From NCBI RefSeq assembly GCF_020509005.1, contig NC_063020.1:744001-808000 (forward strand): a DNA stretch of 64,000 nucleotides, in the 5' to 3' direction. The stretch comes from Fulvia fulva (Eukaryota > Ascomycota > Dothideomycetes > Mycosphaerellales > Mycosphaerellaceae). The position numbers and the translations under genes were made by a program. Position 1 is the stretch's first letter. Each line of letters starts with the position of its first letter. Under the pieces are notes generated by a model, which worked only from the letters and a program-made list of their open reading frames with translations, did no database searches and was not told the DNA's origin. Below, piece after piece: positions 9,532 through 28,026 of this stretch.

Positions 9532-10089
9532 TAGGCGAGTAGCTACAGTATAGTACCGCTATATTTCAATCTCGTTATAATTGTAGTTTTCGCTACGGCA
9601 TAGAAGATATCGAGAGGACAGTCTTGGTCACTAAAGATATCTCCTAAGTGTTAGTATGTCTTTGCGATCGCTGATGTCGTCGTCGCTATAAAGTTCACGC
9701 TATAGGTCGTATAGATCACATTTGGCCAAAAGGATGTACACTACTCCGCAAACTTAATGTGCAACAATGAAGTAGAAGGCCATAGCAGAGGTTTGGCAGC
9801 TTTTGAGGCCTCTGTTGTGCCGTACTGCCCCGTCCTTTAAGCAAAATGCCAAGACTTGGGTATACCTACGCATATCATCCACAAGTCAAACAAAACACGA
9901 AGAGGCAATGCAGAAGCATCAGAGCATGATCTCCCCTATGGACCCGAACGTATGTGCAACGCTTGCCAAAGAAAGGGTCAGTGACGCCCAAAGTGCAAAA
10001 AGAATGCAGAAGCATCACGTTATGATCTCCCAACGCTGGCGACTTGTTAGTAACTGTTCTAGGGCTTCTACAACTTCTGGAACGGGAAA
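9532..10089. other. Intergenic, end of RIP-affected zone; short direct repeat
   Basis: CpA depletion fades by about 9720 and ordinary-composition DNA begins. A roughly 28-nt direct repeat (ATGCAGAAGCATCA-4 nt-ATGATCTCCC) occurs at 9908 and 10004, 96 bp apart. The open frames here look like chance and no gene is supported. Confidence 0.5.
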
Positions 10090-10235
10090 ATCTCACCGGG
10101 ATCGAACCGCGGGCCTCAAGATAACATAGAATGGTAGTCTGTTACAGTCTTGCGCTCTGTGAAACGTCAGTAACAGGTCCTGGATATTTAATACCTCGTG
10201 GAGCGAAACTGACCTTCCAGCTGAGCTATTGAGAG
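10090..10235 (-). tRNA. tRNA-Tyr(GTA)-like gene with GT-AG insertion in the D loop
   Basis: On the minus strand the order is acceptor CTCTCAA, TA, D stem GCTC, D-loop start AGCTGGAA, a 57-nt insertion (10157-10213), D stem GAGC, then anticodon stem CAAGA with loop CTGTAA. The anticodon is GTA at 10143-10145. A 19-nt canonical-position intron (10123-10141) contains a TAC able to pair with the anticodon, followed by stem TCTTG and a T loop TTCGATC. TTTT follows at the 3' end, a Pol III terminator. The insertion starts GTCAGT, has CTGAC nine nt before its end and ends CAG; removing it gives a perfect D arm. Weak points are five of seven acceptor pairs and two mismatches in the T stem (CGCGG/CCGGT), so it may be a decaying copy. 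Confidence 0.6.
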
Positions 10236-22512: not shown

Positions 22513-22613
22513 GGGCGCATGGTTTAGTGGTATAATACCTCTTTAGCATCGCACTAGTGGTGAGAGGGTTTCACAGATAGAGGTGGTCCTGGGTTCGATT
22601 CCCAGTGCGTCCA
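22513..22613 (+). tRNA. tRNA-Ala (AGC) with anticodon-loop intron
   Basis: Acceptor GGGCGCA pairs with TGCGTCC (one G-T wobble), discriminator A at 22613. The D arm is TGGTTTAGTGGTATAATA. Anticodon stem CCTCT/AGAGG flanks loop TTAGCA...T with anticodon AGC (22545-22547). A 29-nt intron (22549-22577) sits at the canonical position 3' of the anticodon. The T arm is CTGGG-TTCGATT-CCCAG. A run of seven T begins about 36 nt downstream (22649) and can terminate Pol III. All stems are intact, so it is probably functional. Confidence 0.9.
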
Positions 22614-23684: not shown

Positions 23685-25944
23685 GTTGTTATTGAAGGTT
23701 GAAAGTGTAAATGTTTGCAGCGGTAAGAGAGTGTTACGTATAGTAGATCTTAGAATCGGGTCATCTCTGCAAGGTCGTAAGGGGATTACTAGTATATAAG
23801 TTATACACACGTTTGTTTACTTGTAATTAGCCCCTGTTCCAAAGACGTAAATAGAAATATTGAACTCTATTACAGAGTAACTTCCCGTGTTGTCTTACGC
23901 CTATTCCAAAGACGTAAATAGCATACTTATACAGTTGAGCTCACAAACACCCAAGGGTAGCGGGAGCCAAGAATTTCGTTTAAAGGTCGAATAATAATCC
24001 TATCAATCGAAAAGGCTCTAGGCTTATAATCTCCGCCCTAACAATGCTGCCCAAAGCTTCCGTACCTCTTCGTCGACTCCTGTCGCGATGTATATAACTA
24101 CTTGTGTATCAAAGTCGAGGATCTATCGCTAGTCCGATAGAAGTTCGGATATGTTATAGAAAGTCAGATTTCAGGTACCCGGAAAGCGGAGCATAACTTT
24201 GTCACGAGGGGTTAGTGTTAGTTGGCTTAGCAAGCTCTCTTAGCAGGCGAAGAGTCAAACTTGCGTTCCGGAGCGTGTTCCTGGGTTCGACAACAATGCA
24301 AACGAGGATGTCTAATCATGCTATGTCGAAATTTGCGGCCCCTGTTATTTTGTTAGGTAGGTCATGTACCTGTTGTGTCACTGCATTTTGTTCCTCGTGC
24401 GTGCTTGACAACTACCTATAGCCGTTGTCGTGCACTGACGGCTTGGCAGCTACAGTACATGTGTGCGACTGTGCCATCGATGAGGCCCGGGGCTGAACGA
24501 GCCGTGGTGACTAGACCGCCGCCACAGAGATTCACTCACTTGTCAAGGTCATCTTTCGTTTTGAGTCATAACATTTTACGACTCTTAAATCGTCTGCTCT
24601 ATAAAACGAGCGTAGTATCCCTCTATCCCCGTAGCCATAGCATGGCTCCAACGTCCACATCTAATTTGTAGGTCGTAACTTGGCTTAGACACAGCATACG
24701 TTGACTTGGCCAGCTCCTTGGCCAACCAGGCACCATTTCTACGTAAATTGTTAGGCCTCTATACTACTAGAGGTATTCAAGATTGCGAAGAACATACAGC
24801 ATTTGGATAACAGTTGGGGGAAGTGCCGCATGAGTATGCATATCATATCGTTAGCCGAGCTCTGGACCTATACTCTACACACGAGAGCTTACTTCAATCT
24901 GCGAACAGCCGGGATAGTACTGTCGTTTGTCGAGAGTAGGTCCACCAAGGACCACATTGACCTAGAAGGCTAAAGCTTAGTATATGTTCTTCCGCGTAAC
25001 GAGGGTAGAGGACGTACAAGAGCAAGGGCCGTGATAAGGCTAGACCAGGTAAACATGGTGGTTGTAGTCGACACGATATAACTTCGAGGTAGTAGATGTA
25101 TAGTTCGCAGTACACTCTGTCTGTAGTACACCGTCGGAAGATGAAGCTAGACTACTACGTCGTTGACGATTATATATACTCTAGCTAGACTTAATGACAG
25201 GCTTGGTGCTGACTAGAAATTGCACAGTCCCTCGACTCCCGAGTATCTTTGAGTACGTATATTCCGGAGTACACGTCAGGCTTGAGTATTTATCGTCTCT
25301 ACGGAGTGTTTGCAAGACTCTAGCTAGGATTGTCTAGGAAAGTCGCATGGCGAGGCTTCTGTAGTAGCGTTTTAGACCAGTTGATGTTGACGCATCTAGG
25401 TTCCTGGTAGCTTTGTTCCTCATCTTTACTATCTCCAAAAGGAGCTATGGGTTCGTCGAGGGTCGCTTGGGGAGATTACGCAGATCGCAGTCCTTGGGTG
25501 CTGCCGATGTTCGTGGACGACATAAGCCGCAGTCCTCGCGATCTAGGAATGTCCAAGAGATGCCAGGAATGCTAGGGCAGTCGGCTGAACGAGATGTTAT
25601 ACCGTGTGGTGACTAGACCATTGGATTCGGCCTCTGTCGCTTCTTTGTGTTCGGAGAACACAATACGAGAGGAAGGTACTGAGCTGGACGATGAGGAAGC
25701 AATACTGGAAGGTTCCGTACACGTGATGTACTCAATGTTCACAGGCGCCTTGAACGCAGGCGGCACAGTATGCTCCGCACTATCAAGGATATAATCGATG
25801 GAGTCCTTTGAAACCCCGTGAACAACACACTTAGAAATAAGCGACATGCTATGCTAGTTTCAAGACGCAGCAAATCCTTACCAGACAGGCCATGGGTGGC
25901 CTTGAACCTGAGCTCATGAGACCCGCGTTGATCCGTACGAAGGG
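23685..25944. other. Gene-poor decayed intergenic DNA
   Basis: Over 2 kb with mild TpA enrichment and many in-frame stops. An 18-nt exact direct repeat (TTCCAAAGACGTAAATAG) occurs at 23837 and 23904. A related block (GGCTGAACGAG ... GTGGTGACTAGACC) appears near 24490 and 25582, suggesting old duplicated DNA. A 91-codon frame on the minus strand (25572-25847) has no recognisable feature and is not called. Confidence 0.5.
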
Positions 25945-26421
25945 CCACAAGTTTCGCCGCACCCCAGCAATCGCCGCACCCCAGCTCGGATTCTCGCGTT
26001 CCGACACATGGTGTTGCTGGCTTGTATCAATTGCCACACACGCTCAAAATACACGATATGTAGCTCAAATTGCTCAGAATAGCATCGCGAATACAGAATT
26101 TGAGAGCCTGTGGGCACTATAGTGGGCTCCATGGTGTGTTGTTGTATGTGGTGAGGTGGTGAGAAAGCAAGAAACGCGTGAATCTCGACACGGGCGCATG
26201 GAGCTTTGGTGGGGCTCTCACCAAAATCCCATGCCGAAGCGTCAACACCAACCTCTCGGCAACACAACGTGTTTTTACGCGATATGAGTATGCAGAATAT
26301 GGAAACAGATAGCTGCAAACACATTGGGAAAAGAATTAAGTTGATATGAGCAGTATTGGTGGTGTTGATGATAAAAAGTCACTGGGGTGCGGCGGTTGCT
26401 GGGGTGCGGCGAAGCTTGTGG
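25945..26421. mobile_element. Fold-back (TIR) element, non-autonomous
   Basis: Two 40-nt arms, 25945-25984 and 26382-26421, are inverted repeats identical at 38 of 40 positions; both differences are C/T. Each arm holds two direct copies of CGCCGCACCCCAG, so the ends carry a sub-repeat as in some DNA transposons. The ~397-nt interior has no coding frame. No target-site duplication is clear, so the outer boundary is uncertain and the superfamily is not assigned. Confidence 0.6.
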
Positions 26422-26522
26422 CGTAATTATCGCTCGGCAGCCCCTACACTTAGCCGCCTGTCGTGGCCCTACGCAAGCTCCGGGACGACGGCGACTTCGT
26501 TTCGGGTGCCTTCGCTCAATCA

Positions 26523-26658
26523 TACCTCTTTAGCATGTCTTGTCTTCGACAACATGGCTATCCAAACTAGAGGTGGTCCGGCGTTCGAGTAAGATATCGT
26601 GAACACGTAGAGCATCTGTCCAACATCTAATTGAATTTCTCAGTTCGCCGTGCGTCCA
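26523..26658 (+). pseudogene. 5'-truncated tRNA-Ala(AGC)-like gene with GT-AG insertion in the T loop
   Basis: Anticodon stem CCTCT/AGAGG, loop TTAGCA...T with anticodon AGC, and a canonical-position intron containing GGCT that can pair with it. Then comes TGGTC, T stem CGGCG and TTCGA, after which a 55-nt insertion (26589-26643) begins GTAAGA, has CTAAT about 14 nt before its end and ends CTCAG. Sequence resumes TT-CGCCG-TGCGTCC-A. Removing the insertion recreates a perfect T arm, CGGCG-TTCGATT-CGCCG, with the same T loop as the intact tRNA-Ala at 22513. The acceptor 5' strand and D arm are not recognisable upstream, so the copy is truncated and probably inactive. Confidence 0.6.
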
Positions 26659-26661
26659 TCG

Positions 26662-28026
26662 AGGTGGTCCGTGTGCTTCTCTATGTTCAAAGATGGAGGG
26701 CGTTCGGGTCTGGCTTTCTTTTTGCTCCTTGAGCGAAACTTTCAGGGAGTTTGATGAATTATTTTACATGCTTCAGAGCGCTGAGCAGTTGCTAAATGTC
26801 AGGGAATCTAGAATGTATTTAACCTCAGTTGCCGAGTGTCGAACCAGCCAAGAGGCTGATGATCACAGCTGTGAAAGAGCTTTTGAAGGCCATTGTATGT
26901 GTCGTGAATGCAAGGATATCCTGAGTGGTAAGAAGAAGGCGTTGGTAACACAGAAGAGATGGGCAAGACGCAAGATCTTATACTGAGACCAGCTGATCGA
27001 CGACTGCCCTTGTCGTCATTGTGTAGCCTCCGCTGGCTCACGAAGGCCCAGTACAATCTCGTCCTTGACGCAGCCTCCGTGTCTCCACTGTTGGTACGGG
27101 GGCCAGGCAAAGATCATTGGACAAGGAAAAGACCAACACAATCAATAGGCTACGGAATGAGAGACTTAGCACGACGAGCTATTTCCCTCGGATCTGCTTC
27201 AGCCACCGGCAGAAGTCCATTCTCTCATTCATGTCTTATGGTAGCAGGCTGAGTCGACATCTGCTCGAGCACCCCCTAGCATGTTCTACGACGGAGGCGT
27301 GTAGTCTGATGGCCATAGCCTGGCAGAGTACACAGTAGCCATCATTGTGCGCGTTTGGACAGACGACATGCACTCGGTCGTGGCCAGCGTAAGCTCCGCG
27401 ACTCGAAGTCGTGACAGTCTGCTGGTCACTCCAGATAGAGTCACGATCTAGCGTCGCTGCTATACCTCAGCCTTCGTGCCGCGTGTGCCGACTTTGCTAT
27501 TCCGAGAAGTGTAGGATAGATCCGATCGTAGGATCAAAATTCGAGACATTCCTCCAGAACGCTCTTGACGGTACATTGTCTGGTTCTTTCTGCGTCATAA
27601 CGGAGCAACGTGTAATGCACATTCGAAGAGCCGACGGGATTGATGGGACCGACGCTGCAAGACTTGACATGAACATGATATGGTGTGCCAAGTCGTGCAT
27701 TATAGAACGCACTAAGTTAGTGTGAGTGTCTTGTTGATCCATCGCGGACCCGCCAAGGGAGCTTATCCAGAGCTCACATCGGGACGATCAGCTGCGTTCT
27801 TATTCATCCTTCGCGCATTTTCGTAGCGTTCAACGCGGCAATTGTGTTCCTCCACTCTGCGAAACGCAACATCAATACAATCCTCACAGCGCTCGGCACA
27901 GCATCAGACGCAGTAGGCAGGATCCAAGGCTGACACACCTTGCTACCCCTTTCGTTGTAACTGGTGCTCGATCATCACACGGCTTGCCTCATCGACGATC
28001 AGATTGCGAGATATAACAAGGTCACA
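26662..28026. other. Intergenic, no supported gene
   Basis: About 1.4 kb. A 97-codon frame at 26693-26986 lacks recognisable features. GTCGTGGCC...GCAAGCTCCG-like sequence occurs near 26461 and 27378, a weak dispersed repeat. Confidence 0.4.

Follow-up and report, generated by a model that had tools for sequence, protein, structure and literature searches.

The question raised by this locus is what a segment with the signals of an mRNA intron is doing inside the remains of a tRNA gene. In the window, by which we mean the whole 64,000-nt stretch of the Fulvia fulva genome analysed here (contig NC_063020.1), an insertion splits the T loop of a tRNA-Ala copy between TTCGA and TT (Table 1). The first-pass annotation had described it as a GT-AG intron whose removal restores a T arm, and each element of that description was recovered: the coordinates, the donor, the CTAAT, the terminal CTCAG and, after removal of positions 26589-26643, the arm CGGCG-TTCGATT-CGCCG. 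Remnants of tRNA-Ala(AGC) surround the insertion as ATACCTCTTTAGCA (26522-26535), AGAGGTGGTCCGGCGTTCGA (26569-26588) and TTCGCCGTGCGTCCA (26644-26658), and in our reading the copy would also have an anticodon-loop intron of about 32 nt. Its T stem differs from that of the intact gene at 22513-22613 at two pairs, each changed on both strands, which bears out the two compensatory changes claimed at the outset.

The copy had been called a relic and is one, because its 5' side is gone at base 26520, where a dispersed repeat ends, and the window holds no other 5' half; a search of the window for an intact one, allowing up to three mismatches in 15, matched only the gene at 22513-22613. Among the other genomic matches of that repeat, 12 of 13 stop at the base equivalent to 26520 and one stops a base earlier. 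As part of the explanation developed below, the segment is probably a spliceosomal-type intron in a decayed tRNA-Ala copy.

Table 1. Features of the window discussed in the text (positions within the window).
Feature	Position	Strand	Remarks
tRNA-Ala(AGC) relic, from anticodon arm to 3' strand of acceptor stem	26522..26658	+	3' two thirds of the gene; 5' side absent
GT-AG intron-like insertion in T loop of the relic	26589..26643	+	55 nt; GTAAGA ... CTAAT ... CTCAG
End of dispersed repeat, truncating the relic	26470..26520	+	13 other genomic matches
Intact tRNA-Ala(AGC) gene	22513..22613	+	29-nt anticodon-loop intron, no GT-AG intron, T-loop site empty; Rfam RF00005, 52.4 bits; found by strict matcher
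Complete tRNA-Tyr(GTA) gene, two GT-AG introns and an anticodon-loop intron	10026..10235	-	210 nt; mature form with 21/21 stem pairs
Tyr GT-AG intron 1, D arm	10157..10213	-	57 nt; GTCAGT ... CTGAC ... CACAG
Tyr anticodon-loop intron, usual place	10123..10141	-	19 nt
Tyr GT-AG intron 2, 3' strand of T stem	10036..10096	-	61 nt; GTGAGA ... CTAAC ... GCCAG
T run 3' of the Tyr gene	9997..10001	-	likely Pol III terminator

Rfam matches at the relic locus were at chance level only (E of 2.2 or more). An intron of a protein gene at 26589 was also considered and rejected: the nearby open reading frames were listed, and the three flanking frames gave no Pfam family at E ≤ 1. The GAGGTGGTCC of the Ala anticodon-variable region recurs a third time just 3' of the relic (26661-26670). 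Upstream (25944-26422) is an inverted repeat with arms of 41 nt, 95% complementary and 397 nt apart, which is possibly a small mobile element.

The T-loop insertion of the relic is not unique, because a second locus, L037 (C6:3078211), has one too. Its T stem is identical to that of the relic, and a 58-nt insertion (GTGAGT...CTAAC...TAG) lies two bases further on; its removal gives the same T arm. By our count only five of the seven positions of the L037 acceptor stem pair. Both copies are thus damaged elsewhere, so the presence of an intron can accompany decay. That the two known cases in which the B box is interrupted are both damaged would fit a need for the B box. A common origin of the two T-loop introns was considered and rejected, their alignment scoring no better than shuffled sequences (-0.5 against -3.1 +/- 3.1).

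The other interrupted locus of the window is of a different kind. The first-pass annotation had counted it, too, as a tRNA-like locus; it is not a relic but a complete tRNA-Tyr(GTA) gene, in which every stem pair forms once the introns are removed. In transcript order it consists of 22 nt, the 57-nt intron, 15 nt, the 19-nt anticodon-loop intron, 26 nt, the 61-nt intron and 10 nt. Searching the genome with this gene returned the gene itself and one second Tyr gene on contig C11 (L163, also L187), with nearly identical exons; its introns interrupt the corresponding arms, the second of them shifted by one base in our reading.

We then ask how general such genes are. The genome searched comprised 67,169,167 bases in 14 contigs, and loci were gathered around two B-box patterns. 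GGTTCRANTCC occurs at 128 places, of which 89 were fetched, 11 were already in the set and 28 fell outside the sample; for GGTTCRANCCC, 53 of 54 places were fetched, the remaining one being the Tyr gene of the window. These counts were rejected as a gauge of intact tRNAs, since neither pattern is in excess over its reversal (128 against 125, and 54 against 104), and they are not a measure of gene number. A strict matcher sought a cloverleaf after excising one to three GT..CTRAY..AG segments of 42-75 nt. Required were GT, AG and, no more than about 30 nt before the intron end, a CTRAY; the one- and two-intron scans set no donor condition beyond GT. Ties between equal solutions were broken by donor fit and, in the core set, partly by branch distance, and three-intron solutions needed a partial donor fit. 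In all, 144 loci were scanned (L021, L022, L037, L041-L180 and the window), amounting to 160,974 bases.

With the real signals, a strict cloverleaf appeared at 26 of the 144 loci after removal of one to three introns. Could such segments, being common, rebuild stems by luck? Permuting the bases of the signals does yield 19 matches over 23 sets, several of them on the loci of real tRNA genes, but this amounts to 0-3 loci per set against 26, and the three-intron solutions at L044, L048 and L061 have no counterpart in two decoy sets. With the branch site relaxed to YTNAY, the count rises to 32 of 149 loci, and eight permuted sets yield 0-2 each. ARAGORN, which is independent of the matcher, agrees throughout: it calls a tRNA in all 27 genes of the core set (the 26 plus L182, which came from a weak Rfam match and was one of four loci added to the fetched ones at that stage) when they are spliced and in only 6 of 27 when they are not. 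Chance as a general account is therefore a negligible prospect, while it may hold at single loci such as L067. A match with a permuted set makes this locus, one of five added by the relaxed scan, doubtful. A genome-wide tRNA search after in-silico removal of GT...AG segments had been put forward as the check on the first-pass proposal, and on the fetched loci it returned a strong excess.

The scan has known blind spots. Loss of or damage to the 5' side makes the Ala relic and L037 fail it, and the CTRAY scan missed the C11 Tyr gene, whose first intron carries CTCAC where the branch site would be. There is doubt about how L113, L129 and L148 should be parsed, and ARAGORN gives odd anticodons for L148 and L096 after splicing. 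L019 can be parsed as split as well; the donor of the 42-nt segment to be removed fits poorly, and the locus was left out of the counts.

The core set holds 49 introns: eight genes have one, 16 have two and three have three. By our parse or by ARAGORN, the isotypes are Tyr, Gly-GCC, Thr-AGT, Thr-CGT, Lys-CTT, Val-AAC, Val-CAC, Ser-CGA, Ser-AGA, Leu-CAA, Ala-CGC, Gln-CTG, Gln-TTG, Asp-GTC and Glu-CTC. The placement of spliceosomal-type introns in tRNA genes, as suggested from two loci of the window, thus appears to extend to these 27 genes. On the signals and restored folds in the genome, we estimate at roughly 85% the probability that a substantial fraction of F. fulva nuclear tRNA genes carry one to three short spliceosomal-type introns, mostly alongside an anticodon-loop intron.

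These introns are uniform, with a length of 54.0 +/- 2.6 nt in the core set (n = 49) and 53.7 +/- 2.8 nt in a set of 41. In 39 of the 41, 10-12 nt separate the branch A from the intron end, a spacing tighter than the scan required. The donor is best judged from the least biased set, 12 introns from eight single-solution loci of the one- and two-intron scans, where GTRAG occurs in nine and G at position 5 in 11. Position 5 is G in 39 of the set of 41; among the 49 core introns, for which ties had been broken by donor fit, the corresponding counts are 29 for GTRAG and 46 for G at position 5. The 3' end is CAG or TAG in 43 of 49. With a GTRAG donor consensus, GT-AG ends and a branch site near the 3' end, the introns have the sequence characters of the U2 type. 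Their sites are the D arm, position 26, the anticodon stem, the variable loop and the T stem, and none of the 49 interrupts the acceptor stem. Because most loci came via intact B boxes, the positions are biased, and any intron within the B box itself would escape the scan.

A different remover has to be weighed here. The insertions might be tRNA-type introns at unusual positions, cut by the tRNA endonuclease through bulge-helix-bulge structures as in red algae, nucleomorphs and archaea. Non-canonical tRNA introns are documented in Cyanidioschyzon merolae and nucleomorphs (PMC4090602), and 24 of the 27 core genes, in our parse, also have an anticodon-loop insert at the ordinary place. Endonuclease cutting, however, predicts neither GT-AG ends nor a branch-like site 10-12 nt from the end nor a fixed length of about 54 nt. 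A central helix of at least three pairs was found for 8 of 48 introns against about 7 expected (our arithmetic, for a simplified motif in one register), and all three helices of the motif for one of 48. With the motif at chance, the tRNA endonuclease is an unlikely remover of the GT-AG introns, and we regard this alternative as quite improbable.

The remaining question is whether the split genes function. After splicing, the core genes form 19-21 of 21 stem pairs (n = 27), and, like functional nuclear tRNA genes, they combine a cloverleaf with conserved residues and, in most cases, a likely Pol III terminator. A run of five T lies within 60 nt downstream in 24 of the 27, against a background of 6.9%, and TATAW within 60 nt upstream in 13, against 11.6%. 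In twelve pairs of paralogues, the mature tRNAs are identical, while the 18 pairs of introns at the same position average 63% identity, the flanks 59% and random intron pairs 56%.

These observations bear on the idea that most split copies are dead pseudogenes in which introns landed, with uninterrupted genes supplying the working tRNAs. Decay of this kind is real at the truncated Ala relic and at L037 with its damaged acceptor stem, and uninterrupted genes do exist. Scored genome-wide, RF00005 gave at least 28 matches at E ≤ 10 and at least 22 above the cut-off, a lower bound from 63 of 1234 first-look candidates; of the 22, six are one repeated element and one is the split Thr gene L021. Without splicing, the strict matcher finds 12 loci among those fetched: Cys, Val-AAC, Ser-AGA, Arg-CCG, three Ala-AGC, two Ala-CGC, Gly-GCC, Leu-TAA and one read as Thr-CGT. 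Four further loci (L002, L013, L020 and L022) have Rfam matches above the cut-off and neither a strict parse, spliced or unspliced, nor a firm isotype. ARAGORN reads one of them, the uninterrupted L002 (C4:5939402-5939505; 59.5 bits), as Tyr(GTA) but puts the anticodon in an odd place; L002 does not resemble in sequence the Tyr genes of the window and of C11, but it may be an uninterrupted Tyr gene.

Against wholesale death of the split copies, paralogues keep identical mature sequences while their introns and flanks diverge, and the T run is kept in 24 of 27. Tyr, Asp, Glu, Gln and Lys are all absent from the 12 strict uninterrupted loci. Searching the genome with mature Glu-CTC, Tyr and Asp sequences in contiguous form gave no match, a weak negative since the same search is also blind to split genes; an Ala query in a search of the same kind finds its two uninterrupted sisters. 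We therefore judge the pseudogene explanation improbable. A search for the initiator tRNA with a Neurospora sequence gave no match, an uninformative negative.

Three further observations concern the tRNA complement. A 115-nt tRNA-like sequence occurs at six places (L013-L018, on C1, C2, C4, C5, C9 and C12) with shared near flanks, L014-L018 being near-copies of L013, as if carried by a mobile element; ARAGORN reads it as Trp-CCA with a 41-nt insert. Beside the intact tRNA-Cys at L001 / L180 (C2:1555656-1558200), ARAGORN adds two Pro-like tRNAs with odd loops, one of them under one setting only, which are perhaps more split genes. Finally, sister genes differ in intron content: Gly L010 is without the T-stem intron present in L041, L063 and L178, Val L070 is without the D-loop intron of L117, and Thr L110 is without the first intron of L021.

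Where the spliceosomal-type introns came from is a separate matter, for which the first-pass annotation had tentatively named introner-like elements as a possible source. Among the set of 41, above-chance likeness is rare and mostly involves sister genes interrupted at one and the same position, with L094 and some weak pairs as exceptions. In L094 (C5:1956895-1957505), a Glu-CTC gene, the two GT-AG introns lie in different arms and are alike (33 of 46 aligned core columns), which hints at copying within a gene and would not make the tRNA introns introners. Introner-like elements, young spliceosomal introns, are known from F. fulva protein genes (PMC4457414). The tRNA introns share with them the species and the spliceosomal type, and L094 has two similar introns; the introner-like elements, however, are described there in protein genes, whereas the tRNA introns are mostly unlike one another.

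Among known systems, one close precedent is the Pol III-transcribed U6 snRNA gene, which contains mRNA-type introns in fission yeast and other fungi; the spliceosome removes the fission yeast one. As here, a spliceosomal-type intron interrupts the gene of a small Pol III RNA, but the present hosts are tRNA genes of many isotypes, with up to three introns per gene and ordinary tRNA introns beside them, and U6 itself is uninterrupted, its single match (L181, C4:1169208-1169308) having no intron. A second precedent, the spliceosomal introns of fungal nuclear rDNA, concerns hosts that are not Pol III genes. It resembles our case in that mRNA-type introns interrupt structural RNA genes, there of rRNA and not of tRNA (PMC11782384). 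The tRNA genes of C. merolae and nucleomorphs likewise carry several non-canonical introns each, in the D and T arms too, and the tRNA endonuclease is held responsible (PMC4090602); unlike those, the introns here have GT-AG ends, a branch-like site, a length of about 54 nt and no excess of bulge-helix-bulge structures.

Among the open-licence PMC papers listed, judged by title and the opening of the abstract, none describes tRNA genes with spliceosomal introns. In three F. fulva papers (PMC9453070, PMC3510045 and PMC4457414), the word tRNA is absent, and in a fourth (PMC11694984) it occurs once, naming a methyltransferase gene. For Peltaster fructicola, of the same class, 44 tRNA genes were reported by tRNAscan-SE (PMC7181583); it is speculation that this count reflects the same effect of missed split genes.

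Interrupted genes, splice signals, restored cloverleaves, T runs and conserved exons are all present in the F. fulva genome. Taking the GT-AG segments as spliceosomal-type introns of working tRNA genes, we hypothesize that Pol III would transcribe the entire split gene and that the spliceosome would excise the GT-AG introns, as with the U6 intron of fission yeast. The tRNA endonuclease and a ligase would take out the anticodon-loop intron, in this presumed order, and cloverleaf folding and maturation would come last. In textbook accounts, a dedicated endonuclease cuts tRNA introns, and spliceosomal introns belong to mRNA. It seems somewhat probable, on the same genomic evidence, that translation in this fungus, and perhaps across a Dothideomycetes order, depends on the spliceosome for its tRNAs: Asp, Glu, Gln, Lys and Tyr would exist only as split genes, two unrelated splicing machines would act on a single precursor, and much of the set would escape standard tRNA finders.

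If this is true, tRNA counts in such fungi can go badly wrong when made with standard software, and pairs of sister genes, one interrupted at a given base and the other not, would offer a clean system for the study of intron gain and loss. More generally, with spliceosomal introns in almost all arms of its tRNA genes, such a genome would show the spliceosome acting on Pol III precursors at scale, which raises the question of how splicing copes with transcripts so short and so highly folded.
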